From IMG/VR virus record IMGVR_UViG_3300022752_006405, positions 1-55,907 of that record: a stretch of DNA of 55,907 nucleotides; one strand, written 5' to 3'. This document shows, one piece after another, positions 7,241-27,623 of the stretch. The first letter of the stretch is position 1. Each line of letters starts with the position of its first letter. A program made the translations under genes and the position numbers. This stretch comes from a virus. Below the pieces are notes generated by a model that searched no databases, was not told where the DNA came from, and saw only the letters and a list, made by a program, of their open reading frames with translations.

Positions 7241-8413
7241 TCACCCTATCGTGATCACGCGTCCCATTGGGACCGGGATCGACTTCAGGATCTTCTGAAC
7301 GTTATCAATTTCCGTCGCCTTCGTCTCGATCAGCTTGTTGTAGGTCATCGAATCGAGCATTTCTTTCAGATCGGTTCGAAGTTTATCCTTCTCTTCCTTG
7401 GCAGCTGACTTGAGATCTCCTCCATCCAACTGTAGGTCACCGCCCGGAATTGGAACTGAGTTGAACTTCGATCTTATCATTCCAAGCAGCTCCTTGGAGA
7501 GAGCCAAAGTATACTGCCTGACCCACTGCCGGGCGAGGGAATTAACTTTCGAGTATATGAAATTGCCATAGGGAACGTTGGAAAGATTGGAGACACCACC
7601 GATCGAATTGTCGGTAAAAGCTGGATTCAACGGGTTCGATTCGAAACCGACCCGTATCCACAGCTTTAAAGGATTCTCTGCCGTGGGGGTCGGAAAGATC
7701 CTAAGTTTGGTTCCGGTCACACGATAGCTGTAATTCGAGCGACGGACGCGATTCGAGATGTTCATCTGCCCGCCGCGGAGAATATCCTCGAACACCGGTA
7801 GGACATAAAAGACGGTCTCAGGCGTGAATGATTCGAACGAGAACTCGTTGTTGAGGTAGTTGATTGCCGATGTCGTATCGAAGAATCGATAGGCCGCCGA
7901 TGGGTTAAAGTGCATGATCTCGAACACCCTCATCTTCCTGTGCTCAGGATTGAGGGACGAGCTCACGACGGGGGTTCCTGTCGATGGATCGAGCAGCTCA
8001 GAGTAGAGATCGTAGTCCTGCACGTTCTGTCGAAGTTGTATCGAACCTGACACGGAATTGTAAGTGCCTCCCAATCCAGCTTCGACAGCGTATGGTTCCG
8101 CGAGTCTTATGATGTAGTTGAGGGTATCACGTGGTAGCTTCTGGGTTGCCTCATTCAAGCTGCCAGTCTGCATGCCAAGAAGAGAGAGAAGCTGACTTCT
8201 CGCCTGGTACTGGTTGACGATGGATCCATACTCGAGGAATGCCTCCTCAAAGCATGCCCAGATCTGCTTTTTTGTTAATTCCACAGAGAGGACGTCATCT
8301 CCCAACTTGCGCTTCACGAATGTGATCATGGCGTCCGCCTCTGTCTGGAACTCAGAGTCAGAGTCAAAAAAGCCGAACGGCGTTGGGTTTAACGTGGTCA
8401 TGAAAGTTGACAC
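7241..8413 (-). CDS. gp13: Neck protein, gp13-like (GTG start)
   Basis: 390 residues; T4 gp13 is 309. Residues 20-60 (EADAMITFVKRKLGDDVLSVEL, then TKKQIWACFEEAFLEY) form the conserved N-terminal block of T4-type neck protein 13, which completes the filled head and accepts the tail. The middle (VFEIMHFNPSAAYRFFD, about 165-180) and a C-terminal helical part (ALSKELLGMIRSKF) are present. I chose GTG at 8413 because AGGAGG stands 6 bases before it. The first ATG in frame is at 8401, 18 bases from that site. The ribosome-binding site and the first two bases of the GTG lie inside a perfect hairpin (8412-8448), so translation may be controlled. Confidence 0.8.
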   Translation of the reverse strand: MSTFMTTLNPTPFGFFDSDSEFQTEADAMITFVKRKLGDDVLSVELTKKQIWACFEEAFLEYGSIVNQYQARSQLLSLLGMQTGSLNEATQKLPRDTLNYIIRLAEPYAVEAGLGGTYNSVSGSIQLRQNVQDYDLYSELLDPSTGTPVVSSSLNPEHRKMRVFEIMHFNPSAAYRFFDTTSAINYLNNEFSFESFTPETVFYVLPVFEDILRGGQMNISNRVRRSNYSYRVTGTKLRIFPTPTAENPLKLWIRVGFESNPLNPAFTDNSIGGVSNLSNVPYGNFIYSKVNSLARQWVRQYTLALSKELLGMIRSKFNSVPIPGGDLQLDGGDLKSAAKEEKDKLRTDLKEMLDSMTYNKLIETKATEIDNVQKILKSIPVPMGRVITIG

Positions 8414-8474: not shown

Positions 8475-9620
8475 TTACAGCAGGACCCGCGCGCGATTCT
8501 CCGGTGTGACATTCTCTGATAGAAGCTTGCGAGCGTACGATATCGTGCACACCTCAAGCGCGAGCCTGTCTAGGGCGGCTCGTGCCACAGACTCGGGCAT
8601 CGCCTGCCCGGCTGCCTTAACCGCGCCGCCTGCGGCTATGAGACCGTCACCGACTGCAATAACGGCAGCCTTAATCGCAGCGCCCAGCGCCCGTATTCCA
8701 GCGAGCCCAAGCCCAAGGAGGCTCGTGATCACTGCGCCGATGAGACCCGCGACGGCTGCAATTGCTCCTCCTATAGCCGCGAGAACCGCTCCGACACCAG
8801 CAACGACGGCGCGAAGCATGTTACCGACGCTCGCGAATCCTGCTTGGATCGTTGCACCGGCAGCAGAGAAAGCATTCGTGAATGCAGCTTCAATAGCCGT
8901 AGCGAACGCACGATAGCTGCACTTATTCGGACCTTGCACGAAACCTGCTTTTGCGGCGCGGATTCCCTGCGCGAGTGTCCCAATATAGGTAAGACACGCT
9001 CCGATGAGCTCATTCGCGCCTCCAACAGCTGCATCCGCGAGACCAGCAAAGAATCCGCCGCCCTCTCCCATCGTTGCAGCTCTCTGACCTGCGGCGATGA
9101 TGTCGGCGGGCTGCACTGGAAGCGCATCCTGGATCATCAGATCTACGTAAAAAGCAGCCGCCGTCGTGTTCCTCACGACGCTTCCAAGCTTCTGCTTGAG
9201 ACCTGCACTCATCGATGCGAGATTACATCCAGGAAGCGTGCCTGCACCGCCACCGGCCGCTGCTCCACCACCACCACCACCACCGCCAGAAGTTGGAATC
9301 AGATTTCCTGACTTCGGGATAATTCTTCCGATCGACGACTCGACGGGGCCCGATATGACCTTAATCTTACCGCCGCCGACGTCCTCATATGTGAATGGAT
9401 CACCGAATCCAGTTCTGTAAGCACCGGGCCCGCGGTTCGCGTCGTCAAGCACGAAATAAGGATCATCCTTGTAACGTGCTGTGTAGTTTGCCTGTACGCC
9501 CTTCTCCTTCAACCAGTCGGATGTTTTCTTCCCGGTATTCACAGCAGCCTCGGTGAGGCGTGACGAACGACGAAGCTCCTCATTCACGATCGCGCGGAGC
9601 TGTCTCTCTGAAATTCTCAT
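8475..9620 (-). CDS. Nested in-frame product: hydrophobic C-terminal domain alone
   Basis: An internal ATG at 9620 has AAGGAG (9629-9634) 8 bases upstream, a stronger site than many true starts in this window. It would make a 381-residue protein beginning MRISERQLRAIVNEELRR, a start that resembles the 96-residue head-module protein (NLTPDILRRIINEEKKK). The product would carry the L-T-E-A site, a poly-Gly linker and the Ala/Gly hydrophobic region (MLRAVVAGVGAVLAAIGGAI and following) without the enzyme domains. Either the fusion arose by loss of a stop between two genes, or both products are made. The hydrophobic part could be a membrane-active or packaged protein; no family is recognised. Confidence 0.5.
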   Translation of the reverse strand: MRISERQLRAIVNEELRRSSRLTEAAVNTGKKTSDWLKEKGVQANYTARYKDDPYFVLDDANRGPGAYRTGFGDPFTYEDVGGGKIKVISGPVESSIGRIIPKSGNLIPTSGGGGGGGGAAAGGGAGTLPGCNLASMSAGLKQKLGSVVRNTTAAAFYVDLMIQDALPVQPADIIAAGQRAATMGEGGGFFAGLADAAVGGANELIGACLTYIGTLAQGIRAAKAGFVQGPNKCSYRAFATAIEAAFTNAFSAAGATIQAGFASVGNMLRAVVAGVGAVLAAIGGAIAAVAGLIGAVITSLLGLGLAGIRALGAAIKAAVIAVGDGLIAAGGAVKAAGQAMPESVARAALDRLALEVCTISYARKLLSENVTPENRARVLL

Positions 9621-11435
9621 ATCTGATTCTCCTTGTTTGTAATTATTCGTACGAATTGATTCTAGAAGGGCGCGAAGTGCTAATCTTCTGCCGTCTTGAA
9701 TATCTCCATGCTGGCCTTTAATTATACTCCAATACTTGTCTTTCATTTCCTGACTTAAGCTTTGCGGTACGTAGCGATCGAACGCGCCTTTATCATCGTC
9801 AGCTATGAACTGTCGCATCTTTGTTCCTGAGATGTCGACGGTCTCAGTCCTTGGAACTCCGACCTGTTGCAATTTAGCGAGGGCTTCCGGATCCCTGATT
9901 CTCTCCGCCATCTTCGCGGGAGAGTACTTGACCCTAGCGTCCTCCTCGTCGGAGTAGAATACGAATTTACTGACCACGTTCTTCAGCTCTTTCATCTTGT
10001 CTACTGCGATATCGAGCGGTGACTCCGAGGTGATGATAAGCGTTGCGTTCGGATAGTCACGATGAAATTGCGGTTCCAGTACCGCTTTCCATGCATCGAT
10101 CATGATTCCCGATGGGATCTCACCACGACCAGCAGTCGAGGTGATGATGAGCGCCTCATCGCACTCACGACGTGTTCTATCTATCATCTGCCAGTGGCCC
10201 TCGTGCACAGGCTTACCAGCGAGGACGAAGATGCCGACGCTGATACCGTTTTGAGTTCCAATTGCAAGTCTTCTCATGACCTGGGATTTGGTCGTTAGAA
10301 ACAGGTCTTCCTGACGCTGAATCAGAGATTTTGGATGTGATAGGGCCCCGAGTCGATTGGAGATAGCTGCGTCGAAGTAACACTCTTGATGGATGTCCTG
10401 TAGGATCTCGTCAAACTCCGCCTCTGGCACATTCCTTCGCTGCTGCGGTGCGAATTCCTGCGCTATTTCACCCGCGATACCGACGACGGTGTTCCAGTAC
10501 TCTTGCTCTGCCTCCTGGGTCTCAGCTCGAAACTTCTTCTTTATATTGAGGCGATGCTGCTTATCGTGTTGATCGTAGCGTAGAGCTTTATAAAGTGCAC
10601 CCGCGGCCGACGTGCTGAAAACAGCGCCTTCGGCAGCAGGGTACTCACCCTTTTTCGAGACGTCCGCATCCGTGGAGAGGGTCGTCTGAAAGTCAGAAAA
10701 CATCGAGTATATTGCGTTGACGATCTTCAATGGTCGATCAGGACCGTTATCGTCATACGCCGCTTTTAGATTATCAAAAAGGTTCACATAACGATTTTGG
10801 ATCATCCGGCTTCTGATCCCGTTCCTAAACTCTTCGAGACTTGAAAGACGACCTTCAAACAGAACGGGATAGGTGCTTACGCCCAGAGTATTCGCGTATG
10901 TTGTAAGGTTCGGTTGTCCATCCTCGGGAGTAATATCGGTGACCAGATGGGTACCAGTTGCCTTGTATCTTGATTTTCCGTACAGGGTGAGGAAAATGCC
11001 GTGCTTCTGTGGGTATTCACGGCTGATCGTAGGTTTTCTCTGCACAAACTCAAGAAAGAATTCAGTCCCGGGTGGAATCGAAGCGGTGTTCGAATGAACT
11101 CTGGCCATGTGCGAATGAACAAGGGAGTACTGAGCCGTTCCACTTGAGGAGGACCTGACCTCCTCCTCACGTGATGAGAGGCCACGTGCTTCGCCCGGGT
11201 AAATGATGTTTCCTTTGTACGCGATATACCAGTTTTTCGTGTAATCGTCGGGGTCGAAAGGATTGTTGCGACGAAGAAGGGTGAGCTTTGTTCCGTCGAT
11301 CTTTTCGACAATTTTTATATTGGGGTCGTTCAAGAATGCTTGGGCTTTTCTTCGATCATTCGCAAGAGCACGCCCTTCCACACCGTCGCGGGCCAACGCA
11401 TCCTTGAGATCTTCTATGGATATGTTTGTCGACAT
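8475..11435 (-). CDS. Fusion: ligase-like nucleotidyltransferase + NMN-adenylyltransferase-like domain + Gly/Ala hydrophobic domain
   Basis: 986 residues in three parts. (1) Residues 1-300: covalent nucleotidyltransferase fold of RNA/DNA ligases and capping enzymes. Motif I is K45-I-D-G48, motif III has E129 (FFLEF), motif IV is E269-G270 (AEGAVFS), motif V contains K283 (YKALRY). (2) Residues 395-575: cytidylyl/NMN-adenylyltransferase fold, with HxGH at H411-H414 (KPVHEGHW) and ISGTKMR at 535-541. (3) Residues 606-986: MRISERQLRAIVNEELRR, an L-T-E629-A site, a poly-Gly linker (717-732), then about 200 Gly/Ala-rich hydrophobic residues. Its ATG overlaps the stop of the Pol-beta-type nucleotidyltransferase gene (TGATG), so the two are coupled. 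The motifs are read directly from the sequence; substrates are unknown. RNA repair, RNA 5'-end modification or NAD chemistry would fit. Confidence 0.85.
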   Translation of the reverse strand: MSTNISIEDLKDALARDGVEGRALANDRRKAQAFLNDPNIKIVEKIDGTKLTLLRRNNPFDPDDYTKNWYIAYKGNIIYPGEARGLSSREEEVRSSSSGTAQYSLVHSHMARVHSNTASIPPGTEFFLEFVQRKPTISREYPQKHGIFLTLYGKSRYKATGTHLVTDITPEDGQPNLTTYANTLGVSTYPVLFEGRLSSLEEFRNGIRSRMIQNRYVNLFDNLKAAYDDNGPDRPLKIVNAIYSMFSDFQTTLSTDADVSKKGEYPAAEGAVFSTSAAGALYKALRYDQHDKQHRLNIKKKFRAETQEAEQEYWNTVVGIAGEIAQEFAPQQRRNVPEAEFDEILQDIHQECYFDAAISNRLGALSHPKSLIQRQEDLFLTTKSQVMRRLAIGTQNGISVGIFVLAGKPVHEGHWQMIDRTRRECDEALIITSTAGRGEIPSGIMIDAWKAVLEPQFHRDYPNATLIITSESPLDIAVDKMKELKNVVSKFVFYSDEEDARVKYSPAKMAERIRDPEALAKLQQVGVPRTETVDISGTKMRQFIADDDKGAFDRYVPQSLSQEMKDKYWSIIKGQHGDIQDGRRLALRALLESIRTNNYKQGESDMRISERQLRAIVNEELRRSSRLTEAAVNTGKKTSDWLKEKGVQANYTARYKDDPYFVLDDANRGPGAYRTGFGDPFTYEDVGGGKIKVISGPVESSIGRIIPKSGNLIPTSGGGGGGGGAAAGGGAGTLPGCNLASMSAGLKQKLGSVVRNTTAAAFYVDLMIQDALPVQPADIIAAGQRAATMGEGGGFFAGLADAAVGGANELIGACLTYIGTLAQGIRAAKAGFVQGPNKCSYRAFATAIEAAFTNAFSAAGATIQAGFASVGNMLRAVVAGVGAVLAAIGGAIAAVAGLIGAVITSLLGLGLAGIRALGAAIKAAVIAVGDGLIAAGGAVKAAGQAMPESVARAALDRLALEVCTISYARKLLSENVTPENRARVLL
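9629..9634 (-). promoter_or_regulatory. Internal ribosome-binding site (AAGGAG)
   Basis: AAGGAG, 8 bases before the in-frame ATG at 9620-9618, deep inside the ligase/adenylyltransferase fusion gene. It supports a separate translation start for the C-terminal domain. Confidence 0.55.
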
Positions 11436-12967
11436 CAGCTACCCCACACAGCAGCTTCGATGAGCCTGCCAATACGCCTCATCCTCGATTCATCAACTCT
11501 GGGTTGATCATCATCTTCTACGAAACCTGCCTGTCCACGAATTTTGTATCTTGAGTAGAAGTCATTCTTCATCGCCTCCACATTAATGGTGGAGGCCTCA
11601 GCTTCGGGAAGATGTTGACGAAAAACTTCAAGCACCTTGTCCTTCACACTGCGATCCTCCTCTGGATCTGTTGCTGAGAGTTGTTGCCCACGATCTCCGA
11701 AAAAGCGATCGACCATCTCCTCATATACTTTCACGATTTCCTGTGGCGTGAATCTATTTTTAAGCAACTCCAACGCACCGAGAAATGATCCGAAATTTTC
11801 GAGGTCTTCCTCGGTCGCCGGTGGATTTACACCCATCAGATTATCAAAGATAAGCTTAACATCACGTATTGCATTAGTTCTCTCAGCGCGCTTCAGATAT
11901 TTGTAAACTTCATCGCCGTTGTAAGTCCAATCGAGACGTTGATAACGATCGCCCAAACCAGTTACAAGATCAAGTGTCCGAACTGGTCTGAGGGGAGCAG
12001 GCATTTTTGATTCATGACCTATCTCAATCCTGACTCTTCTTTCTGCTTCTTCACGCGCCTTTTCAGGGTTCTTACGCTTTTGAGCAGCTAGAATCTCACT
12101 CTCACGCTGACTCACTCGCTTCTCAATTTCCTCTGGCGTCGGAGGAGCGTAGCTTGGGTTTGCCGTCATTTTTACCGCGGGTTTCTCCGCCGTCGCTGTC
12201 GGAGTAGCCTCACGAGCTCCGACTGGTGGTGGAGACCTCACGGCTGCAATCGAGAACAGCAGAACTTTATGAGCGAGACCCTTAACGCCCGCTATGACGT
12301 CCCGCCACGCCGAAGAGTATGAGAACTTTGCCCATTCAGAGGGTCGTCCGCTCTCGTACTCAGAACCTTCGAAGTCAATCTGGAAGAATGTGTCTCCCTC
12401 ACCCTCTGGGGCTTGGGAGTCCCACGTGTAGGCGAAAAGAGCGTTGATCTGGTGCGATCCTGGTGATTTTTTGTTATGACCGACATAGGCGATCTTGGGC
12501 GTGAGCTGCGCGTCTTCACGTCTGTTGAGAGTTTGAAACAATCTGTCCATTTTATCGACTGGTACCGTAAGGTCGATATCTCCTACCGCGGGTTTGTATG
12601 TCACGAATTCATCATCCGACAACGTCTCAGGAGGTGCAAAAAGATGTGAGGATGATCCGTTAAACGCGAATCCTGACCCGAGGATATCATCACGCTGCGT
12701 GCGATCCCAGATAGGCTCCCCGTGATCTCTCTCGAACTCTTCGTCAAGCTTACGAAGCATCTCGATCACGTCAGTCCTGAGCTGCTGCCTCGTGATCCTA
12801 CCGGATCTTAGATCGATCTTCTCGGCGTACGCTTCACGACCGCGGAAAGTTTTAATTTGCTCGCCTCCGACGACGAGGCCAGTGGCAGGGTCACGAACAA
12901 GAGCACGGGTGTTTCCGCCCTCGTTGATTGAACCTGAATCGAAGATAAACTTAGCGATGCTAAACAT
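11435..12967 (-). CDS. Pol-beta-superfamily nucleotidyltransferase
   Basis: 510 residues. Residues 100-200 show the minimal Pol-beta nucleotidyltransferase signature: G104-S105 (FNGSSSH), D130-x-D132 (VGDIDLTVP) and a third acidic strand with D198 (FFQIDFE). These bind the two catalytic metals in the family that includes CCA-adding enzymes and small nucleotidyltransferases. A charged, Pro-rich linker (about 245-320) leads to an all-helical C-terminal domain. The protein ends VDESRMRRIGRLIEAAV, close to VDESMLRRELRRLREA in the scaffold and matching the L-x-E-A cut rule of T4-type prohead proteases. No Shine-Dalgarno is evident at the ATG. It follows the capsid terminator and is coupled (TGATG) to the ligase fusion. 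Substrate unknown; transfer of NMP to an RNA end or to a protein are both possible. Confidence 0.75.
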   Translation of the reverse strand: MFSIAKFIFDSGSINEGGNTRALVRDPATGLVVGGEQIKTFRGREAYAEKIDLRSGRITRQQLRTDVIEMLRKLDEEFERDHGEPIWDRTQRDDILGSGFAFNGSSSHLFAPPETLSDDEFVTYKPAVGDIDLTVPVDKMDRLFQTLNRREDAQLTPKIAYVGHNKKSPGSHQINALFAYTWDSQAPEGEGDTFFQIDFEGSEYESGRPSEWAKFSYSSAWRDVIAGVKGLAHKVLLFSIAAVRSPPPVGAREATPTATAEKPAVKMTANPSYAPPTPEEIEKRVSQRESEILAAQKRKNPEKAREEAERRVRIEIGHESKMPAPLRPVRTLDLVTGLGDRYQRLDWTYNGDEVYKYLKRAERTNAIRDVKLIFDNLMGVNPPATEEDLENFGSFLGALELLKNRFTPQEIVKVYEEMVDRFFGDRGQQLSATDPEEDRSVKDKVLEVFRQHLPEAEASTINVEAMKNDFYSRYKIRGQAGFVEDDDQPRVDESRMRRIGRLIEAAVWGS

Positions 12968-13048: not shown

Positions 13049-14932
13049 TCAGATGATGTTCATGTCGAGGCAGGTGACCGTTCCGTAGAAGTCGGAGCGG
13101 ACCATCTTCTTGCCGTAGCGGGTCATGACACCCTTGCGTGGCGTGAAGTCCTCGGGCGCGAAGATCGTCGGAGTGACGATGAGCGGGACGTAGGGGGCGT
13201 AGACGTAGCCGGTCTCGAGGTAGCTGCCGCCCTTGAAGCCGACGAGGATCTTGTTACGGGGGAAGTAAGGATCCTTGTAGACCGTGAAGCGGTTCGAGAG
13301 AGTACCGACCTTCTCCGCGCCGATCGAGAACGGGGCGCCGACCTGGCCGGAGCCGTCGATGCTGTAGCTCGGACGGTAGTACGTGGAGGCCTCGAGGATC
13401 GTCGCGACGTCCGGGCCGACAACGATGAAGTTGGCGGAGCCGCGGAGGGTCTTGCGGTGGATCTCGTTGGCGACGTCGATGATCGTCTCGGTGAGCGTCT
13501 CGTACCACTCGCGGACCGTACCGGTGAAGTTCGGGCCGGGCTGCGTAGCGCCGCTGCGGGTGATTTCGGTGCCTGTGGTCTTATTGACGAACTTGCCAGG
13601 AGCGCGGCTCCAGAAGTAGTTCGCACCGTTCGCCTGGGTGAGGAGGTCGTTCAGGATCTCGCGGTCGAGCTCGAGAGCGATCTGCTCGGAGAGGATCTGG
13701 GTGAGCTCAACCTCAGCGTCGATGCTGTGGTAAGCGTTCAGATCCTGTGCGAGCTCCGGAGACCAACGAGCGCGGAGCTTGCGGGTCGTCGCGGTGACGG
13801 CGATCGACTCGATCTTGATGTCGATCTCGGGGATGACCGGGGAGGGGGTCGCGCCGAAGTTCGACTCGAAGACCGGAATGGTGACCGTGGAGCCGGTGGA
13901 GCTCTCAACGTCGAGCGCCGAGGCGAGCGGGTAGCTGAGCGAGCAGCTCGCCGCCATGTTCGCAGCCGCAGTACCGGTCACAACGCAGAGAAGGTGCGTA
14001 CCGGAGAGCGGGGTCGGGGTGAATGTTGATCCGTCCCAGGATCCGATCTGGTTCAGTCGACGAAGGTTGAGGACATTAGTGCCACCCTGGAAACCCTCAC
14101 CCCATGCGCGGGTGTTGAGAGGGTTGTTCACCGTGCCAGCCTTGGCGACGAGAGCAAACTCCTTCGCGAGAGTGTGATCAGCGGAGGAAGAGATGTTACC
14201 GAGCGTAACGACGGCGAACTTGAACTGGGCTGTTGCCACACCAGCAGTTCCGTTCTCGATCAGGCTTGTGAGAGCAGGATCGAAACCGAGGAGACGACCA
14301 TCCGTGCCTGTGGCGAAGATGTAGTTCGTCGCTGCGAAGGCGCCCGAGCCACCGAAGGCGCCGGAAGCAGCCACCGTGACGTCAGTGTGTCCGTGGACGC
14401 GGCTGAAGCTGACACCGGCGAGGTCGTACATACCGCCCGTCGCGAGAGAGCCTGTCTGGATGCCCTTGCCCGCTGGGTTGTTGTAGATCGACTGGCCCGC
14501 AGTGTAGGTCGAGGCCGCAGCGTTGTCGCTGAGGTTCGGACCTGCGAGGCCGCCCACGTTGCTACCGTAGGTGTAATCCAGGTAGAACAGGAGACCCGAG
14601 GGAAGGCTCATCGGCTGGATCGAGACGAGCTCGTTCGCCACGAGGCCGCCGAAGACGCGACGGACGATGGGGAACGCGATGTTCGAGAAGCCGCGGATGT
14701 CGCCGTTGCCAGCGGCGGTGGAGCCGCCACCTGACGAGAGAGCGTTCGACTCACGGAGGAGGTTAGCAGTCTGGTTCTCGAGGAGGCGAGCCATGTTCTC
14801 GCGATTGGTGCCCTCGAGGCCACGAAGCAGGCCGGTGCGGCTCCACTTCTCAACGAGGCGGCTGTTCTCCGCCCCAACGTCACGCCCGCGGATTCCCTCG
14901 GCGAGCTGATCTAGTGTGAAAGTCCTTGACAT
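13049..14932 (-). CDS. gp23: Major capsid protein, gp23-like
   Basis: 627 residues; T4 gp23 is 521. The N-terminal propeptide contains MARLLENQTANLLRESNAL. L-R-E61|S62 fits the T4-type prohead protease rule and lies close to where T4 gp23 is cut (after residue 65). The block IVRRVFGGLVANELVSIQPM (about 86-105), followed by GLLFYLDYTYGS, is the diagnostic HK97-fold gp23 segment. The C-terminal half has ELTQILSEQIALELDREIL and a strand-rich end. The extra length is in the middle (about 120-370) and probably forms an insertion domain on the capsid surface. GGAG precedes the ATG. A hairpin overlaps the stop of the scaffold gene upstream, and a strong terminator follows. The gene is much more GC-rich than the tail genes, consistent with codon selection for high expression. 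Confidence 0.95.
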   Translation of the reverse strand: MSRTFTLDQLAEGIRGRDVGAENSRLVEKWSRTGLLRGLEGTNRENMARLLENQTANLLRESNALSSGGGSTAAGNGDIRGFSNIAFPIVRRVFGGLVANELVSIQPMSLPSGLLFYLDYTYGSNVGGLAGPNLSDNAAASTYTAGQSIYNNPAGKGIQTGSLATGGMYDLAGVSFSRVHGHTDVTVAASGAFGGSGAFAATNYIFATGTDGRLLGFDPALTSLIENGTAGVATAQFKFAVVTLGNISSSADHTLAKEFALVAKAGTVNNPLNTRAWGEGFQGGTNVLNLRRLNQIGSWDGSTFTPTPLSGTHLLCVVTGTAAANMAASCSLSYPLASALDVESSTGSTVTIPVFESNFGATPSPVIPEIDIKIESIAVTATTRKLRARWSPELAQDLNAYHSIDAEVELTQILSEQIALELDREILNDLLTQANGANYFWSRAPGKFVNKTTGTEITRSGATQPGPNFTGTVREWYETLTETIIDVANEIHRKTLRGSANFIVVGPDVATILEASTYYRPSYSIDGSGQVGAPFSIGAEKVGTLSNRFTVYKDPYFPRNKILVGFKGGSYLETGYVYAPYVPLIVTPTIFAPEDFTPRKGVMTRYGKKMVRSDFYGTVTCLDMNII

Positions 14933-14971: not shown

Positions 14972-14997
14972 AAAACCAACGGGGCAATCACTTGCCC
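14972..14997 (-). terminator. Weak terminator or attenuator hairpin across the scaffold stop codon
   Basis: On the minus strand GGGCAA-GTGA-TTGCCC (14982-14997) is a perfect 6-bp stem with a GNRA loop that contains the scaffold TGA. It is followed by CGTTGGTTTTG. The U-tract is imperfect, so partial termination or an mRNA-stabilising processing end for the capsid message is likelier than full termination. Confidence 0.45.
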
Positions 14998-16784
14998 GAC
15001 TTGATACCTGCGAGGACAGCCCAGCGATCCACCTCGACGGATTCATTCAGGCTAGCAGCAGGGCTAGCTGACCGCGTCGATCTGGAGGACGAACCAAGGA
15101 TCCGACCCTCAGTCATCGTGCCTGACTTCGACTTGAGAGACTCAGTCAGGCTGGTGTAGAGAAGCTTTGCCTCTCGCACCGACTTCGCAGCGTCGAGCGA
15201 CTCAACGATCGCTCTCTGCTGACGTGGGGTGAGGTCCCGGTTCTGCATCAGCTTATTGACATAGAGAAGCTTCGCGTTGAACAGGTTAACCTCCTCGAGC
15301 TGCTCGCGGAGGGCAACAGCCTCCTTGGCAGCCTCAACCAGCTTGGACTTGAGAGCACGATTCATGCGTGCCTCCTCGACCCTGGCATTACGCTCTTCCT
15401 TGGCAGCCTCGGTAGCCTTCTTGGCAACCTTGAGAGCCTTCTCGGCGACCTCCTCGGCCTCCTCAAGCTCGTCCATCTCAGACTCGGAGAGATGATTCAA
15501 CTCATCCGGAAGGCTCTCGACGGAACCACCACCAAAACTCTTGGGCATCGCGTCCTTGATGCCCTTTGCATTCTTACCCTTGGAGCTCTTAGCCTCACGG
15601 AGGCGACGGAGCTCACGACGGAGCATGGACTCATCAACGTGGAAAGTCTTGCTCTCCATCATGCTGTCGTCATCCATCTCGTCAAGCTCGGGATCCATCA
15701 TCTCGTCGAGCTCGGAGTCAGCCATCTCCTCAACGTGATATCCTTCTTCCTCATCGAGGTCAGAATCCATCATCTCATCGAGGTCCATCTCGTCGTACAT
15801 CTCCTCATCGAGATCATACTCAGATGGAGCGGGGGGAGCAGCCGGTGGGGGTTCGGGTGCAACTGGAGCACCAGCTCCAGTATCAGCGACGTCGACCGGC
15901 ATCTCACCGCCGGCTCCCTCGGCACCAGCCTCCATCTCGTCACCGAGATCAACTGTGAAAGTCATTGCCTTGAGCTTCTCTTTGACAGTGTCATCGAGAC
16001 CCTCAAGATCAGCTGGCTCAAACATGAGCTTCGCTTCATTACGAAGGCGAGGCCTTCTCTCCATTTCCTCGAGCAGACGGCGGAACCGCGCGCTAGTTGA
16101 CATATCTCTTATCTCCTTTACGATGCTGTTGAATTTTTTCCTGATCTCAGGAGTGCTACCATTAGATATCATATGATTCCTGAAATCATTGACATTTTTA
16201 ACCAGAATTGCATACGCTGACCTAAAATTCACGCTCTCGGTCAACGGAAGTTTGTGTGAAACTCTCTTGAGAGATTCGAATTGGCGACGAATCTTCCCGA
16301 GCGAGACTCTTTCGCGATGACGCTCTCCTAGAACCATATCAGCCAACGCGTTCAGAGCTTCCTCATTCATCGACACATCGACGTCATCACCCTCAGCTAC
16401 GTCAGCGTCCGCAGCAGCAGATGCCTCACCGTGCTTATCAACGCGAACGTTGATCTTCACCTCTGTTCCGGAGGCAGTTTTGGTTGTCACCGTGTGAGTG
16501 ACCTCCTCATCGGGATCAGGTGCGGGCGCCCCAGGAGCAGCAGCGGCTGCAGGAGCTGGTGCGGCGACAGCAGCAGCAGGATCGTCTGGTAAGGGTTCGA
16601 GATCAAGGTTCGGAGCTTCCTCAGTAGCTTCCTCTTCCTCTCCCTGCTCAGCTAAAATCTGCCGCTCGATCATCCGACGGATCTGCGGTGAAATTGACTC
16701 GATAATCTTATTTCTTGCATTTCTCTCCGCCATCTCCTTGAGAGACTTGGCGTCTGCGATCGCTTCATCATAAAGATTCGACAT
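14988..16784 (-). CDS. gp22: Prohead core scaffolding protein, gp22-like
   Basis: 598 residues; T4 gp22 is 269. The C-terminal part (about 430-550) is a long charged coiled coil with NKLMQNRDLTPRQQ, AIVESLDAAKSVREAKLLY and SLTESLK. This is the gp22 C-terminal signature that supports capsid assembly. A highly acidic, repetitive segment (about 323-378) carries repeats of the type ELDEMMD. Pro/Ala-rich linkers surround residues 65-95 and 300-322. VDESMLRRELRRLREAKSS (383-401) contains L-R-E397|A, and other L/I-x-E sites are frequent, as expected for a scaffold degraded by the gp21-type protease before packaging. The gene lies directly before the capsid gene, as in T4. ATAGTTAA stands 20 bases before the ATG. 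Confidence 0.85.
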   Translation of the reverse strand: MSNLYDEAIADAKSLKEMAERNARNKIIESISPQIRRMIERQILAEQGEEEEATEEAPNLDLEPLPDDPAAAVAAPAPAAAAAPGAPAPDPDEEVTHTVTTKTASGTEVKINVRVDKHGEASAAADADVAEGDDVDVSMNEEALNALADMVLGERHRERVSLGKIRRQFESLKRVSHKLPLTESVNFRSAYAILVKNVNDFRNHMISNGSTPEIRKKFNSIVKEIRDMSTSARFRRLLEEMERRPRLRNEAKLMFEPADLEGLDDTVKEKLKAMTFTVDLGDEMEAGAEGAGGEMPVDVADTGAGAPVAPEPPPAAPPAPSEYDLDEEMYDEMDLDEMMDSDLDEEEGYHVEEMADSELDEMMDPELDEMDDDSMMESKTFHVDESMLRRELRRLREAKSSKGKNAKGIKDAMPKSFGGGSVESLPDELNHLSESEMDELEEAEEVAEKALKVAKKATEAAKEERNARVEEARMNRALKSKLVEAAKEAVALREQLEEVNLFNAKLLYVNKLMQNRDLTPRQQRAIVESLDAAKSVREAKLLYTSLTESLKSKSGTMTEGRILGSSSRSTRSASPAASLNESVEVDRWAVLAGIKSGK

Positions 16785-16818: not shown

Positions 16819-17391
16819 TCATTCTTTTTCGAGGTCCTGCCGCAAATGAATTGCTCTGATCAAGCGACGAAGTCTGGACATCGTCAACTCGTCAGGTCCA
16901 GGTATCTCCTCTAAAGTGTAAGCAGGTTCCATGGATCCCGCATCTCGAAGCGGTAGTGAGCTGGAATATCCAGCTTTTGATCCAGCGAGTGATATTCTGG
17001 CCGGAGCAGGTCTAATCGCCGGACCATCGGCGCCAACCCCCAGAATACCCTGCTTATTTTTGTACAGATTTGGAATCGGAGACATTCCACGACCCGTCGT
17101 CTGCTCGTGCATCCAGAAATCAGCGCCCACGAATCGACGATTATCCGCAGCACGATCGGCATACGAGTCCCAGCGAATGTGACCCTGACCCGCCTTGTTA
17201 CCTATCGCAACTTGCGTTTCTGGGTCATCAATCTCCGGCTCATCATCGACATCGTGCTCTGGCGGCTCGACATAAGGCCAAATTGCACCGCGTGAACGAG
17301 GAAGATCTCGTCTAGCGTCCGTGCCGTAACCAAGACCTGTTCTAACGTCGTAGTTCGGATTGTTAGCTTCGCTAATCTTCCTGTAAGACAT
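16819..17391 (-). CDS. Head-module protein of unknown function (190 aa)
   Basis: No family recognised. The protein is polar, with many Arg, Asp, Pro and Gly residues (GYGTDARRDLPRSRG, EPPEHDVDDEPEIDDPETQ) and little predicted fold in the first 150 residues. It ends with a basic helix (ELTMSRLRRLIRAIHLR) that resembles the Arg-rich helices in the scaffold, the nucleotidyltransferase and the ligase fusion. It lies between the protease and scaffold genes, where T4 has small core proteins, and starts just after the stop of the gene before it. An internal-core or minor head protein role is an inference from position only. Confidence 0.7.
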   Translation of the reverse strand: MSYRKISEANNPNYDVRTGLGYGTDARRDLPRSRGAIWPYVEPPEHDVDDEPEIDDPETQVAIGNKAGQGHIRWDSYADRAADNRRFVGADFWMHEQTTGRGMSPIPNLYKNKQGILGVGADGPAIRPAPARISLAGSKAGYSSSLPLRDAGSMEPAYTLEEIPGPDELTMSRLRRLIRAIHLRQDLEKE

Positions 17392-18029: not shown

Positions 18030-18320
18030 TCAGAGCTGCTCGAGGATACGGGAACGAATTTCCTGACGAGCCTCATTAACCTCGGAGAGTTGCTGCGCAA
18101 GCTCAGCTGCTTCTTTCTGGAGGTTCTTGTAGTGCTGCACTTCCTTGGCGAGAGTGTGCGCCATATCCTTTGCCTCGACCTCTCGAGTCTGCTTCGCGAC
18201 CTTTTCAACGTCCTGCGCCTTGCCGGATGGCTTCTTGGCGCGCGACTTGAGGATCTTCTTCTTCTCCTCGTTGATAATACGACGAAGGATATCAGGCGTG
18301 AGATTTACGACTCTTGACAT
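18030..18320 (-). CDS. Small coiled-coil head-module protein (96 aa)
   Basis: Almost entirely charged helix. It begins VVNLTPDILRRIINEEKKKILKS, then a heptad-like helix EVQHYKNLQKEAAELAQQLS and EARQEIRSRIL. The N-terminal LRRIINEE resembles LRAIVNEE in the ligase fusion, and I-N-E fits the L/I-x-E cleavage rule. Its size, charge and place between protease and scaffold recall the small prohead core proteins of T4 (gp67, gp68), though I see no clear sequence match. AAGGAG is present upstream and ATAGTTAA stands 27 bases before the ATG. Confidence 0.72.
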   Translation of the reverse strand: MSRVVNLTPDILRRIINEEKKKILKSRAKKPSGKAQDVEKVAKQTREVEAKDMAHTLAKEVQHYKNLQKEAAELAQQLSEVNEARQEIRSRILEQL

Positions 18321-18370: not shown

Positions 18371-18838
18371 TCACACCGCTTTTTTAGACGACGCAAAAGC
18401 GAGATCAGCCCAGTTGGATGCTCCCTCGAATATAGACATCGGGTCAACATTCGTCACACCGTTCACGTCATCAGCCCGCTGGGCCAGCGCGGATCCTGGT
18501 GAACGATCGGCGGACATCTGGGCTGGTAGAGTGTTTCTAACGGTGTCCTCGAATATCTGCTTCATGATATCGCGCTGCTCGGCCGGAAAAGCAGTGGCTA
18601 GCTCATTTACGACGGGCGGCACTGGCCTTCGACCTTGAGCCTGATTCGCGACACGTGAAGCTCCATCAGAGAAGCTGATGCTGTCCAGATGTTTTTTTCC
18701 GGACGCCGGTGGGCTAACCCGCACCGACTCTTGAACGCTCTTCGTCACAGGACGATGGGCTGGCTTGATACCATCCAGCATAACCTCGAGAATGCATTCT
18801 TTGATTATGTCCTTCAACTCAGATCTTGTCATCGCCAT
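18371..18838 (-). CDS. Head-module protein of unknown function (155 aa)
   Basis: No family recognised. The N-terminus MTRSELKDIIKECILEVMLDG is a short amphipathic helix like those opening the 96-residue protein. The middle is polar and probably disordered (residues 30-75), followed by a helical C-terminal half (EQRDIMKQIFEDTVRNTL; ASNWADLAF). It starts directly after the protease stop (TGAATG) and is probably co-translated. Position and composition suggest a prohead core or minor head component. Confidence 0.7.
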   Translation of the reverse strand: MAMTRSELKDIIKECILEVMLDGIKPAHRPVTKSVQESVRVSPPASGKKHLDSISFSDGASRVANQAQGRRPVPPVVNELATAFPAEQRDIMKQIFEDTVRNTLPAQMSADRSPGSALAQRADDVNGVTNVDPMSIFEGASNWADLAFASSKKAV

Positions 18839-19453
18839 TCATTTCTTCCATGTTAGAATATCGTTGAATATTCTATCGATGCGATCACTTCTATTAAACG
18901 TTCTCGAAAGATCTGCCTGCTTGACCTGACGACCTTCACGCATCATGAAAGCGCCCGGTGTCGAGGGCTCGGAAACGAAATCCCAGCATATGAGCTGGAA
19001 GTCGTCCTGTACTATCTGATGCTCGCCGGACTTTCGTGTGGACCCAACGCCTCGTGATGAAATTCCCAACGTGACACCAGCCTCGACCAAGCTTTGAAGG
19101 ATCTTGCCACACGGAGTATCGAGAATCTCGACCGAACCGTAGCAGACATTGCCCTCCATGTACGCTTCACGAACGATGTGGCTTACTTTCTTAAGCTCTA
19201 CCACGGAGGAATCTGGGTGATCACATTCTCCCAATGCTCGATTCTCGCGAATAAACTTCTGATAGTTGCGAACTTCACGTTCGAGGATATCGCGTGGATA
19301 CACTCGTCCATTCTGATTGAGAGTCTCAGCTTTCTGGAGGATCCCTTTCATGATAAGCTTTCCCCCGTTCGCGGCCCTGTTCTCCTTTATCGACTTCGCG
19401 TCATAGGAGAAGGGTGTCCACTCCGTTAACAGAGTCAGTGATTTGTCACTCAT
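18839..19453 (-). CDS. gp21: Prohead core protease, gp21-like
   Basis: 204 residues, close to T4 gp21 (212). The serine protease matures the prohead by cutting scaffold, core and capsid proteins after L/I-x-E. Key segments are GRVYPRDILEREV (about 49-61), GECDHPDSS with the catalytic His at about 79, and GVTLGISSRGVGS with the catalytic Ser at about 133. These are spaced as in the herpesvirus/T4 assemblin fold. The ATG lies inside the end of the preceding gene (ATGAGTGA, 8-base overlap), so it is translationally coupled. Its expected cut sites appear in the scaffold, the capsid and the two nucleotidyltransferase proteins encoded nearby. Confidence 0.92.
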   Translation of the reverse strand: MSDKSLTLLTEWTPFSYDAKSIKENRAANGGKLIMKGILQKAETLNQNGRVYPRDILEREVRNYQKFIRENRALGECDHPDSSVVELKKVSHIVREAYMEGNVCYGSVEILDTPCGKILQSLVEAGVTLGISSRGVGSTRKSGEHQIVQDDFQLICWDFVSEPSTPGAFMMREGRQVKQADLSRTFNRSDRIDRIFNDILTWKK

Positions 19454-24227: not shown

Positions 24228-24501
24228 GCTTTCTCGAGTGAGGCGACGAGAATCTCTTCCTTTTGATTTCTGAAATCGTGATTTCATCAGGTCTCCAGCC
24301 TTTCAACCATCTTTCTCGATTTGGGTCTGCAACTTCAACCTCACAGTCAAAGCAGCATTTCGATCTCGAAATCGATATCTCATCAATTTCATCTATGAGA
24401 ATGCATGTACACAGCGGGCAGTCCAGAGGAGAAGACTCATTTTTTACCTCTCCTCGTCTTACGATCCTGAAATTTTTTTTCTTCTCAACTACCGTCTGCA
24501 T
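24220..24501 (-). CDS. Small zinc-ribbon-like protein (93 aa)
   Basis: Two cysteine knuckles, CPLC (about 28-31) and CFDC (about 50-53), are separated by about 18 residues. This is a likely zinc-binding ribbon or treble clef. The second knuckle is followed by EVEVADPNRERWLKGWRP and a basic end (KRKRFSSPHSRKH). The ATG overlaps the stop of the Mre11-Rad50 fusion (TGATG). No family is recognised; a DNA-binding partner of the recombination proteins is possible from context. Confidence 0.68.
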   Translation of the reverse strand: MQTVVEKKKNFRIVRRGEVKNESSPLDCPLCTCILIDEIDEISISRSKCCFDCEVEVADPNRERWLKGWRPDEITISEIKRKRFSSPHSRKHI

Positions 24502-27500
24502 CAGTATCTCACCCTCGCGTCAATCCCATCATGGGAGATCTCTATGACGTTATCAACGATGTCTTTGATGCTGTCAACGTGGGAGATCACGAGCATATTC
24601 TTGAAATTTCGCTTGAGTGAGGTTAGAAGTCGAGCGCAAGCCTCGAGGTTCGTGTCATCAAGAGCGCCGAAACCTTCGTCGATGATGAACAGATCTGGCT
24701 TCGGTATCGCCGACACTTCAATCAGAGCTGTTCTAATCGCCAACGAAGAAATCATCTTCTCCATTCCAGATGAGAGCTCAATTGGTCTCTGCGAGTCACC
24801 GTAATCGATAAAGATCTCAAGATCACCATCCTCCTCGTTCGCTGCCAGCTCAACGTTGAAGTTCGCGACGCCAGTTAGAACCTTTGAAATCTCGTTATTG
24901 ATCCTGGGAAGTTGGGAAGCGATAATTTGAAGTGGAATCCCGTCCTTGCCGGTCGCGGCAAGAATCGTCTCAAAAACTTTCCAATCAGCTTGGAGCTTAT
25001 TGATCCTCTCGATGTCCTGCTTGAGCCGGGTGATCTCGGCACCGATCGCCCCGATTCGCTGGTTGTCCTTCAAGATCTTCTTAGAGATTTCCTGCGACTT
25101 CTTCTCCTGCTCATCAACCTCGAGCTGCATCTTCTTTACCTCTTCCAGAGCAGAGACTGAGATAGCAGCGCGAATCTCTTGTAACAATTTGTTCACTCGC
25201 TGATACTCTTTTTCAAGAGACTCTCCGAGAGACTCCAAGCTCTTCGCCTTACCCTCATGGGCAGCGAGTGAGGTTCGCGCTGCGGGAAGTTTCGATTCAA
25301 TCGAGACGAGCTTCTCGTAACGAGATTTCATCTCACTCAGGTCACTCGCGTCAAAACTCTGCTTCAGCTCATCGATCAACGCTGTAATCTCATCCAGCGA
25401 AGCTCGATGCTTCGGAATCAGCAGACGATCAGCATGGGAATCCTTGATGTATTTGCATGTTGGGAATTTATCACCGCATGGAACGTCAGAGAGCTTGGTA
25501 ACAGATCTTTCCAGACGTTGGAGCGTCTCACTCTCGAGCTTAAGCTTCACCTGCGCGTCATTTATCTTCGTTGAAATTCTTTCGGTGCGCTCGATATCTG
25601 CCTTGAGAGCAACGATATCAGCTGTTGCAAGCACACTCTCGGTCTTCTCAATCTTAGCTTTGAGCTCATCACGTTCAGCAATAGATCTTTCAAGCTCGTC
25701 GCGATTCTTCTTGATCTTGAGGTGGAGATCGATGATCTCCTCGTCGTACTTCTTGATGTCGTCTAAGGTGTGAGAAGATCCCGGCGACTCGCGCTCGAGG
25801 ATAGCGCGGATCTTCTTAACGTGGGACTCGATAGAGTTCTTTTCACGCTCGAGAACCGCTATTTCATCATGAAGTGTCTCCTCCTCCTTCTGCTTCGCCT
25901 CTATCGCAGCTTTAAGATCGAGAGCCGGAGTCCTACGAAGCTCTGATTTTATCGAGCTCGAGCTCTCCTTTGCGAGTGAGTTTAAGGAGTCGAACACCTG
26001 CAGGTTCAGGAACTTCGAAAGGATGTTCTTTCTTGCGGTCGCTCGCTCCTTCAGGAACGCGTTCATCTCTCCTTGCGCCGCGAAGGACGTCAGAAGGAAG
26101 TCATCAGAGGTACCGATGAGGGATCGAAGCGCCTTGTCGGAATCCTTACGCTGCTCGCCCGAGATATCCTCAACGGGATTACCGTCATGATCGAGCCTGA
26201 ATAGGTTCAGGTGGGTGACAGCGTGGTTTAGTCCCGCTTTCGTCTGATGCTTGACGGACTGACGTTCAGAGAGATAAGTTTCGGACCCCGCCTGAAACTC
26301 AACGGAAGCCTTGCAGTAATCCTTTCGGGTATTGATGATGTGAAGATTCTTGATCGGCCCACGGTCGGTCGTATTAAACAGCGAATACATGATCGTGCCC
26401 GGAATGGAAGACTTTCCCTGCGCATTTCGACCGAAGATTCCAGTGATGCCGGTGAGATTTTCGAAGTCGATCTCGTTGTCCTTACCGTATGAGTACGTGT
26501 TATCCCATCTCAACTTCTTGATGGACCACTTCACGCTTCCGAGACGCTCGTCCTCCGGCAGGGAATCAATGAGCTTCGAAACTGCTGCGTCGAGTTTCAC
26601 CAGCGAGTCACCGTCAAGGCCCTTCGACTCGGCGTAGCTCTTGAAGAGACCCTTTATCGTGGCAGGGTCACGAAGATTCTCACGTGAGAGTGTGGTCGCG
26701 CCCGCTCGCATCTCCTCCTTTAGCTGCTCACCAACGAACTTCCAGACAACTTCGGAGGCTGCCCTCTTCTTCTTGAGCTCGCCAGCGAGCTGGCGAGACT
26801 CCGAGATTGCAACGTTCTCATTGTTCAGAATCCTGAAACGGGAACCAGCTGGAAGCTTGTCGCAAACTTCCATCGTAGCCGAGACATCTCCCTGCCACTC
26901 GATAGTTTGGAAGGGACGAGGATTCTTCAACTTAATGAAGTTAACGCGGTAATCATCTCGATTCTTGATCTGCCAGAACAAGAACCCCTTTTCGACATCC
27001 TCACCATAGTTCTGTTGAACCGTGGATCCTGGATATGCAATTCGAGTATCACCGTCAAGAAACTGCTGTCGATGAATATCACCGAGAAGCGAGAAATCGT
27101 AGGGTCGAAACATGTCGACGGTTACTTCACCCTCGATCGACATACCCGTATCAAGCAGAGATCCACCGACGGCTCCATGATAAAGGGCGATGTTGATCAG
27201 ATTGGGATTAGGGCTACACTTATTCCATCCTTCCTCATCGAAGCATGAGAAATTAGCGAAGTTAACTCCGTTAATCTCGTAATTCCCTGAATCCTTTAGG
27301 AAATGAATATTGTGATGATCAAGCGCCGCGATAATTGGGGAGATCGCGTCGAGGCGCGACTTGTTATGGATGAGACCATCATGATTCCCAAGAATGACAA
27401 CCGTCGGCCAGTTCGAAAGTTTCTGAAACCACCAGCGAAGTCGATCGACAAGCTCTGGCGTGATGCCCTGGGTCTTGGAGTGAACGATGTCTCCACCCAC

Positions 27501-27623
27501 GACAATCATGTCTGGATGTAGGTCTTCGAGTTTCTTGAAAAAATCCTCGAATACCTCGGTGTACTCGTCATGACGCTGGAGGCCACGCCAGTGGATATCT
27601 GCGATATGTGCGATCTTGATCAA
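24501..27623 (-). CDS. Single-chain Mre11-Rad50 (SbcD-SbcC, gp47-gp46) fusion, TTG start
   Basis: 1040 residues carrying both halves of the double-strand-break nuclease complex. Residues 1-240: metallophosphoesterase with D9-x-H11, GGD45, GN80-H81-D, H149 and GD182-x-H184. Residues 365-560: ATPase N-lobe with Walker A GRNAQGK404-S and Q-loop Q517. A long coiled coil follows, with a hook region C716-x6-C723 in place of the usual CxxC. The C-lobe has signature SSGMEK (951-956), Walker B IID982-E983 and H-loop H1015. TTG at 27623 is the likely start because the first strand (IKIAHIADIHW) begins there; it overlaps the primase stop (TTGA). In T4 these are two separate genes, 46 and 47. Role: DNA end processing for recombination-dependent replication. 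Confidence 0.93.
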   Translation of the reverse strand: MIKIAHIADIHWRGLQRHDEYTEVFEDFFKKLEDLHPDMIVVGGDIVHSKTQGITPELVDRLRWWFQKLSNWPTVVILGNHDGLIHNKSRLDAISPIIAALDHHNIHFLKDSGNYEINGVNFANFSCFDEEGWNKCSPNPNLINIALYHGAVGGSLLDTGMSIEGEVTVDMFRPYDFSLLGDIHRQQFLDGDTRIAYPGSTVQQNYGEDVEKGFLFWQIKNRDDYRVNFIKLKNPRPFQTIEWQGDVSATMEVCDKLPAGSRFRILNNENVAISESRQLAGELKKKRAASEVVWKFVGEQLKEEMRAGATTLSRENLRDPATIKGLFKSYAESKGLDGDSLVKLDAAVSKLIDSLPEDERLGSVKWSIKKLRWDNTYSYGKDNEIDFENLTGITGIFGRNAQGKSSIPGTIMYSLFNTTDRGPIKNLHIINTRKDYCKASVEFQAGSETYLSERQSVKHQTKAGLNHAVTHLNLFRLDHDGNPVEDISGEQRKDSDKALRSLIGTSDDFLLTSFAAQGEMNAFLKERATARKNILSKFLNLQVFDSLNSLAKESSSSIKSELRRTPALDLKAAIEAKQKEEETLHDEIAVLEREKNSIESHVKKIRAILERESPGSSHTLDDIKKYDEEIIDLHLKIKKNRDELERSIAERDELKAKIEKTESVLATADIVALKADIERTERISTKINDAQVKLKLESETLQRLERSVTKLSDVPCGDKFPTCKYIKDSHADRLLIPKHRASLDEITALIDELKQSFDASDLSEMKSRYEKLVSIESKLPAARTSLAAHEGKAKSLESLGESLEKEYQRVNKLLQEIRAAISVSALEEVKKMQLEVDEQEKKSQEISKKILKDNQRIGAIGAEITRLKQDIERINKLQADWKVFETILAATGKDGIPLQIIASQLPRINNEISKVLTGVANFNVELAANEEDGDLEIFIDYGDSQRPIELSSGMEKMISSLAIRTALIEVSAIPKPDLFIIDEGFGALDDTNLEACARLLTSLKRNFKNMLVISHVDSIKDIVDNVIEISHDGIDARVRY

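Follow-up and report, generated by a model that had tools for sequence, protein, structure and literature searches.

A Pol-beta-fold nucleotidyltransferase and an RNA-ligase-type protein fused to a HIGH-superfamily nucleotidyltransferase domain are encoded side by side between the major capsid and neck genes of a complete 55.9-kb viral fragment (all 55,907 nucleotides of which are called the window here). We consider it marginally more probable than the opposite that the two genes represent an RNA end-repair set which, in the clade of the window, is packaged in the phage head and ejected together with the DNA onto RNA cut by host defences.

Table 1. Features of the locus and of the surrounding head operon. 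A slash within a sequence motif marks a predicted or candidate cleavage site.
Feature	Position	Strand	Basis
gp13-like neck / head-tail adaptor	7241-8413	-	phrog_211, E 1e-12
Ligase/HIGH ORF	8475-11435	-	986 aa; enzyme corresponds to the N-terminal ~605 aa
Variable cargo-slot gene, in-frame fusion	8475-9620	-	starts MRISERQLRAIVNEE; Gly/Ala-rich, hydrophobic
Ligase C-terminal tail, motif LLE592/SIR	9618-9662	-	[LV]xE site in the tails of relatives
HIGH-superfamily nucleotidyltransferase domain (NMNAT/PPAT-like), residues 397-575	9711-10247	-	VIA; hmmsearch
RNA-ligase-type domain, residues 1-390	10266-11435	-	phrog_27149, E 1e-18; Foldseek; motifs
Pol-beta-fold nucleotidyltransferase gene	11435-12967	-	510-aa ORF; phrog_19290 (unknown function), E 1e-25
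Pol-beta C-terminal tail RMRRIGRLIE/AAVWGS	11435-11500	-	mostly, not fully, conserved in the clade; low model confidence
Predicted mature N-terminus G17-G18-N19	12911-12919	-	invariant in alignment A1, at least 90% in A3
Capsid-targeting propeptide (predicted), MFSIAKFIFDSGSINE, residues 1-16 with cleavage after E16	12920-12967	-	homologue pattern; pLDDT < 50
Major capsid protein, gp23 homologue	13049-14932	-	phrog_138, E 7e-71
gp22-like scaffold	14988-16784	-	position and composition; many [LIVMF]xE sites
gp21-type prohead protease	18839-19453	-	phrog_207, E 5e-50

The minus strand of the window carries a T4-like head-to-tail operon, in the order protease, scaffold, major capsid protein, Pol-beta and ligase/HIGH pair, and neck gene. 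An initial annotation made from the sequence had already described the TGATG overlap joining the two ORFs of the pair as well as their placement between capsid and neck genes, and both are borne out by the ORFs and by the PHROG matches on either side. The major capsid protein has a candidate propeptide site, LRE61/S, and the ORF inferred from its position to be gp22-like contains 15 [LIVMF]xE sites in 598 aa. A search with a defence-system library matched nothing relevant. At a distance from the pair (24501-27623), a 1040-aa ORF with a phosphoesterase-like N-terminal start and an SMC-like remainder looks like a gp47-gp46 (SbcD-SbcC) fusion.

Neither gene of the pair scores above cut-off with Pfam, and PHROGs assigns them to families 19290 and 27149, both without a known function. 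Since a profile of the Pol-beta protein gave no credible match among PDB sequences, a fold model was needed for its classification. AlphaFold (AF2) models were built from alignments of 47 (Pol-beta) and 34 (ligase/HIGH) homologues. The Pol-beta model has a mean pLDDT of 88.7, with residues 1-18 below 50. Its VIA matches are dominated by polymerases mu, lambda and beta with Z up to 7.8, and no single Pol-beta family is picked out among the rows. Foldseek returned small alarmone synthetases and TdT at a best E of 0.1, with unrelated phosphatases also listed; the PDB matches as a whole belong mostly to the Pol-beta superfamily, at modest scores. Taken together with G104, S105, D130, D132 and D198, the signature residues on which the initial annotation had been based and which are invariant across 47 diverse homologues with identity down to ~22%, these matches, modest in themselves, argue for membership in the Pol-beta superfamily. 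RlaP was absent from the Pfam matches at E <= 1 of the window, Vibrio, Campylobacter and Xanthomonas proteins, on the assumption that the library includes the RlaP model. At the C-terminus, a second cleavage site is possible after E504.

The ligase/HIGH model reached a mean pLDDT of 89.5. T4 RNA ligase 2 is the best Foldseek match of the ligase domain (2hvr, E 2.6e-7, prob 1.00, with a low TM across the whole multi-domain model), and an archaeal RNA ligase is listed as well. K45, D47 and G48 of motif I (KxDG) as well as E129, E269, G270 and K283 of motifs III, IV and V are present as originally described and invariant in 34 sequences. The domain thus combines the nucleotidyltransferase motifs of the Rnl2 type with a predicted Rnl2 fold. 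For the HIGH domain, VIA-align gave Z up to 12.8 against PPAT and NadD, and hmmsearch against NMNAT/PPAT sequences an E of 1e-5. HEGH (411-414) and ISGTKMR (535-541), the two motifs that had suggested an NMN adenylyltransferase, are present and place the domain in the HIGH superfamily. H414 of HxGH is invariant in the 34 sequences; H411 varies, the first His being lost in the Vibrio and Campylobacter homologues. Pfam RNA_ligase (PF09414, cut-off 27) reaches only 15.0-15.3 bits in CP220 and L105 and does not match the window, CTP_transf_like scores over cut-off in X1, Va1 and CP220, and the NCBIfam NMNAT models stay below their cut-offs in the window (13.5-13.6 bits versus 127 and 341) and in X1 (33.9 versus 127). 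Overall, structure prediction and sequence conservation of the two proteins support all three folds of the initial annotation.

The fusion of a ligase-type with a HIGH domain is confirmed. The Gly/Ala-rich C-terminal ~380 aa of the ORF (residues ~606-986), which had been counted as part of the enzyme, were rejected as an enzyme domain, as they form a separate, variable gene in relatives. In all close relatives with the gene end present, the ligase ORF reaches a length of ~590-601 aa, and the slot behind it is occupied by a separate gene that differs among relatives or is missing. In the window there is no stop in frame at the ligase end, and AAGGAG (9629-9634) and ATG (9618-9620) are retained; the in-frame join is either a real fusion or a one-base sequencing slip, which look alike here. 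Every close relative whose ligase C-terminus is present has an [LV]xE site in the tail (LLE, LFE, LYE, LWE or VLE), and LLE592/SIR is a possible C-terminal processing site of the ligase. The gene in the slot often begins with an ISESxLRxIIREE-like stretch in relatives, and in the window, too, a short helix-like tag of the type M-x-ISESxLRxIIREE opens the variable gene that separates ligase and neck. Three small ORFs beside the scaffold and protease genes (16819-17391, 18030-18320 and 18371-18838) contain less pronounced versions of it, with a shuffle p of about 0.01-0.02 for each, uncorrected for many tests. The tag may be a second head-targeting signal.

Furthermore, the distribution of the set among other phages was analyzed. 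In ~20 close relatives the pair is adjacent, and it lies beside the major capsid and/or gp13 gene wherever the contig extends that far. Phages of Vibrio, Campylobacter, Xanthomonas and Stenotrophomonas carry more distant homologues. One of these is encoded at 39251-40375 of HM246720 in Campylobacter phage vB_CcoM-IBB_35, for which virion mass spectrometry has identified 38 proteins, 25 of them lacking homologues (PMC3322345). The homologous genes are unlinked in Campylobacter CP220, X1 and Mendera have the modules as individual genes next to each other, and pairs occur in other phages as well. Single chains also exist, namely ligase-HIGH-Pol-beta in L105 (958 aa) and Pol-beta-ligase-like-HIGH in L070, L073, L065 and others (~1000-1400 aa). 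The ligase-like regions of the L070 class and of X1 and Mendera align with each other; profile comparison of these regions with the window ligase detected no link, and they are termed ligase-like from their motif order only. With the fold predictions, the adjacency in close relatives and the one-polypeptide versions, the proposal of the initial annotation that three nucleotidyltransferase folds act together is well supported.

Two further arrangements were observed. A 1919-aa ORF in L080 (1808-7567; also in L085) contains Pol-beta, ligase-like and HIGH parts and, after them, an HD-type metal-dependent phosphohydrolase domain (phrog_990) and repeated VAE/G-like stretches, which suggests a processed polyprotein. 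Xanthomonas X1 (L026:10885-11889) and Stenotrophomonas Mendera (L027:12911-13855) have an extra gene of an unknown family, with 26% mutual identity, between the Pol-beta and the ligase-like gene.

Outside the window clade, a P-loop kinase and a calcineurin-like phosphoesterase (metallophosphoesterase), both above the Pfam cut-off, adjoin the set. The phosphoesterase is present in the cluster in many phages and the ~175-aa kinase in several, in orders such as polb-ligase-kinase-phosphoesterase (L055) or phosphoesterase-polb-kinase-ligase (L109 and L112), or with the phosphoesterase immediately after the ligase (L050, L052, L054 and L104). A complete RNA end-repair sequence, as in Pnkp-type systems, is obtained when kinase and phosphoesterase are combined with nucleotide addition and sealing. 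In the window clade, dedicated kinase or phosphoesterase neighbours of the pair are absent, and the PF00149 match of the larger relatives is a ~1050-aa ORF that we take as gp47/46-like. Of the three pathways initially suggested, RNA repair is favoured by the presence of these healing genes in other phages, and an NAD-linked or a 5'-end reaction is less probable.

The start of the Pol-beta protein follows a simple rule. When the N-termini were sorted by looking for GG[NQ] close to the beginning of the domain, with truncated or motif-less ORFs dropped, 18 of 60 usable homologues begin Met/GGN, 42 of 60 have an extension ending in Glu before GGN or GGQ, and none (0/60) has another arrangement; L026 and L119 have in-frame sequence upstream of the Met, and in L105 (with GGQ) and L057 the Glu site is internal. 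The extended sequences, which are not independent of each other, have Glu at P1 in 42/42 and L, I or V at P3 in 39/42 cases, mostly as [LIV]xE/GGN, with Glu making up 7.5% of the residues of the Pol-beta core. A tree of this core requires nine switches between the Met and Glu states, and well-supported branches force at least five of these. The T4 prohead protease recognises a short motif and cleaves behind its Glu, and T4 internal proteins carry targeting peptides of 10-20 residues (PMC5694885, PMC9026906; for the biology of capsid-targeting sequences see also PMC3012670 and PMC12373910). Judged by sequence, [LIV]xE/GGN corresponds to this cleavage pattern, so that the Pol-beta leader appears to be a T4-type propeptide, and a gp21-type protease is encoded in the same genome.

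Comparable leaders are found on other members of the set. [ILVF]xE/[AST] sites are present in 11 divergent N-terminally extended ligases (the extended ligase L078 has none), against a background of 8.4% of 724 ORFs with a comparable site. Kinases in other phages also bear T4-like capsid-targeting peptides, and in clusters such as L058 and L116 several genes have such leaders; the leader MKTYVEFITE/A of a neighbouring gene closely resembles that of T4 IPIII. In the window, the ligase lacks a targeting peptide at its N-terminus and has its [LV]xE site in the C-terminal tail instead. Separately, L057 (5675-8215) encodes a ~440-aa domain of unknown type in front of Pol-beta, with its own leader MKKISEFLCE/G and an internal INE/GGN junction ahead of Pol-beta.

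Peptidase_S77 was detected in 15/34 other records holding the system. Several phages with the Glu-type leader have no Peptidase_S77 or S78 match in their available fragments, and neither an S78 protease nor gp23 was found in L070-type records. A clear association of the Glu-type leader with head-gene neighbours is seen in the window clade and in L114; in the other lineages with such leaders, head genes were undetected nearby. The internal-protein genes of T4 do not all adjoin head genes either. For the window, a cleavable capsid-targeting propeptide, which the initial annotation had overlooked, is the likely cause of the position of the pair in the virion operon.

From the computed folds, invariant catalytic residues, co-occurrence, fusions, N-terminal pattern and gp21-type protease gene we infer packaging, cleavage, ejection, an RNA substrate and a role of the HIGH domain as follows. 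In the window clade the pair would be made late, alongside the head proteins, and the 16-residue N-terminal peptide would bring the Pol-beta enzyme into the prohead core, with the ligase, bearing its own C-terminal LxE site, alongside. The gp21-type protease would then cut after E16 and expose the GGN N-terminus. Ejected with the DNA, the enzymes would act at once on host-cut RNA, most likely tRNA, the Pol-beta enzyme adding one or more nucleotides at the broken RNA 3' end and the Rnl2-type ligase joining 5'-phosphate to 3'-OH. The fused HIGH domain would process an adenylate or nucleotide intermediate; this is the weakest part of the proposal, and the domain might adenylylate the 5'-phosphate or act on a modified nucleotide. 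The simplest account of the two N-terminal states is that some phages make the set in the cell, while others also, or instead, load it into the head, the leader and the operon position suggesting that the window clade is among the latter. The fuller version, a virion-borne kit for nucleotide addition and ligation, in some phages with kinase and phosphoesterase, that is packaged by its leaders, released by the protease with a required GGN, sometimes made as a polyprotein, and mends RNA before phage gene expression, is put forward tentatively, at somewhat less than an even chance.

That the enzymes act only in the infected cell, with the leader and Glu/GGN serving auto-inhibition or another protease and the operon position reflecting late expression, appears unlikely to us. 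RNA repair genes of T4 do work intracellularly, and the Met/GGN forms, which lie mostly away from detected head genes, point to function without packaging. The residues in front of GGN in the extended forms are, however, those that a prohead protease would require, without exception at P1 and in 39/42 cases at P3, and the leaders resemble T4 capsid-targeting sequences and are shared by ligases and kinases of other phages.

We regard it as rather improbable that the HIGH domain makes an NAD- or CoA-like dinucleotide which the ligase domain moves to RNA or protein, resulting in a modification such as NAD capping. The NMNAT/PPAT-like nature of the domain would fit such a reaction, and T4 Alt is a precedent for a packaged NAD-using enzyme (PMC9026906). 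Yet the closest structure of the ligase domain is Rnl2, the kinase and phosphoesterase partners suit end healing better, and the partial loss of HxGH in the Vibrio and Campylobacter homologues indicates that small-molecule synthesis may lack conservation. Lower still we place repair or processing of DNA, i.e. of broken or nicked genome ends at packaging or entry. The prevalence of DNA polymerases mu, lambda and beta among the VIA matches, the late-gene position and the DNA content of the head speak for it; the proximity of the ligase to T4 RNA ligase 2 and an archaeal RNA ligase, and the separate annotated possible DNA ligase of Campylobacter CP220, speak against it.

Returning to the packaged RNA end-repair set, several known systems can be compared. 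The initial statement that no system of this architecture had been described was too strong, as in jumbo phages the Pol-beta nucleotidyltransferase RlaP is paired with ATP-grasp RNA ligases and predicted to replace lost nucleotides ahead of sealing (PMC7824862). The window pair likewise places a Pol-beta nucleotidyltransferase alongside an RNA ligase, but differs in having no Pfam RlaP match, a fused HIGH domain, a predicted capsid-targeting leader and a position in the head operon. T4 RNA ligase 2 (Rnl2, gp24.1), the nearest solved structure, shares the KxDG, E, EG and K motifs, whereas the window ligase domain is fused to HIGH and paired with Pol-beta. NMNAT and phosphopantetheine adenylyltransferase have the fold and the ISGTxMR and HxGH motifs of the HIGH domain; the latter is, in contrast, fused to an RNA-ligase domain and lacks the first His in some homologues. 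Multi-enzyme RNA end repair is also carried out by bacterial Pnkp1-Rnl-Hen1 (PMC4411300), to which the phage set is similar in adding a kinase and a calcineurin-like phosphoesterase in other phages and from which it differs in using Pol-beta and HIGH nucleotidyltransferases.

With T4 IPI-III and Alt the window Pol-beta protein has in common a short N-terminal peptide ending in hydrophobic-x-Glu and a co-encoded gp21-type protease. Alt is likewise an enzyme, and its C-terminus is processed too (PMC9026906); injected T4 proteins are known as anti-restriction factors (PMC12373910). The characterised T4 internal proteins are restriction inhibitors and Alt is an ADP-ribosyltransferase, whereas the window encodes a set of predicted nucleotidyltransferases. 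In the limited open-access literature covered, we found no paper on packaged RNA repair and none that joins RlaP-type repair with injected proteins.

So far, phage RNA repair has been known as a response after infection, and the injected head proteins of T4 are mainly restriction inhibitors and Alt. If our reading is true, phages can counter RNA-cleaving defences before any protein synthesis. The PHROG families 19290 and 27149 would thereby gain a testable function, and the Glu/GGN rule would offer a simple way of seeking head-packaged enzymes.
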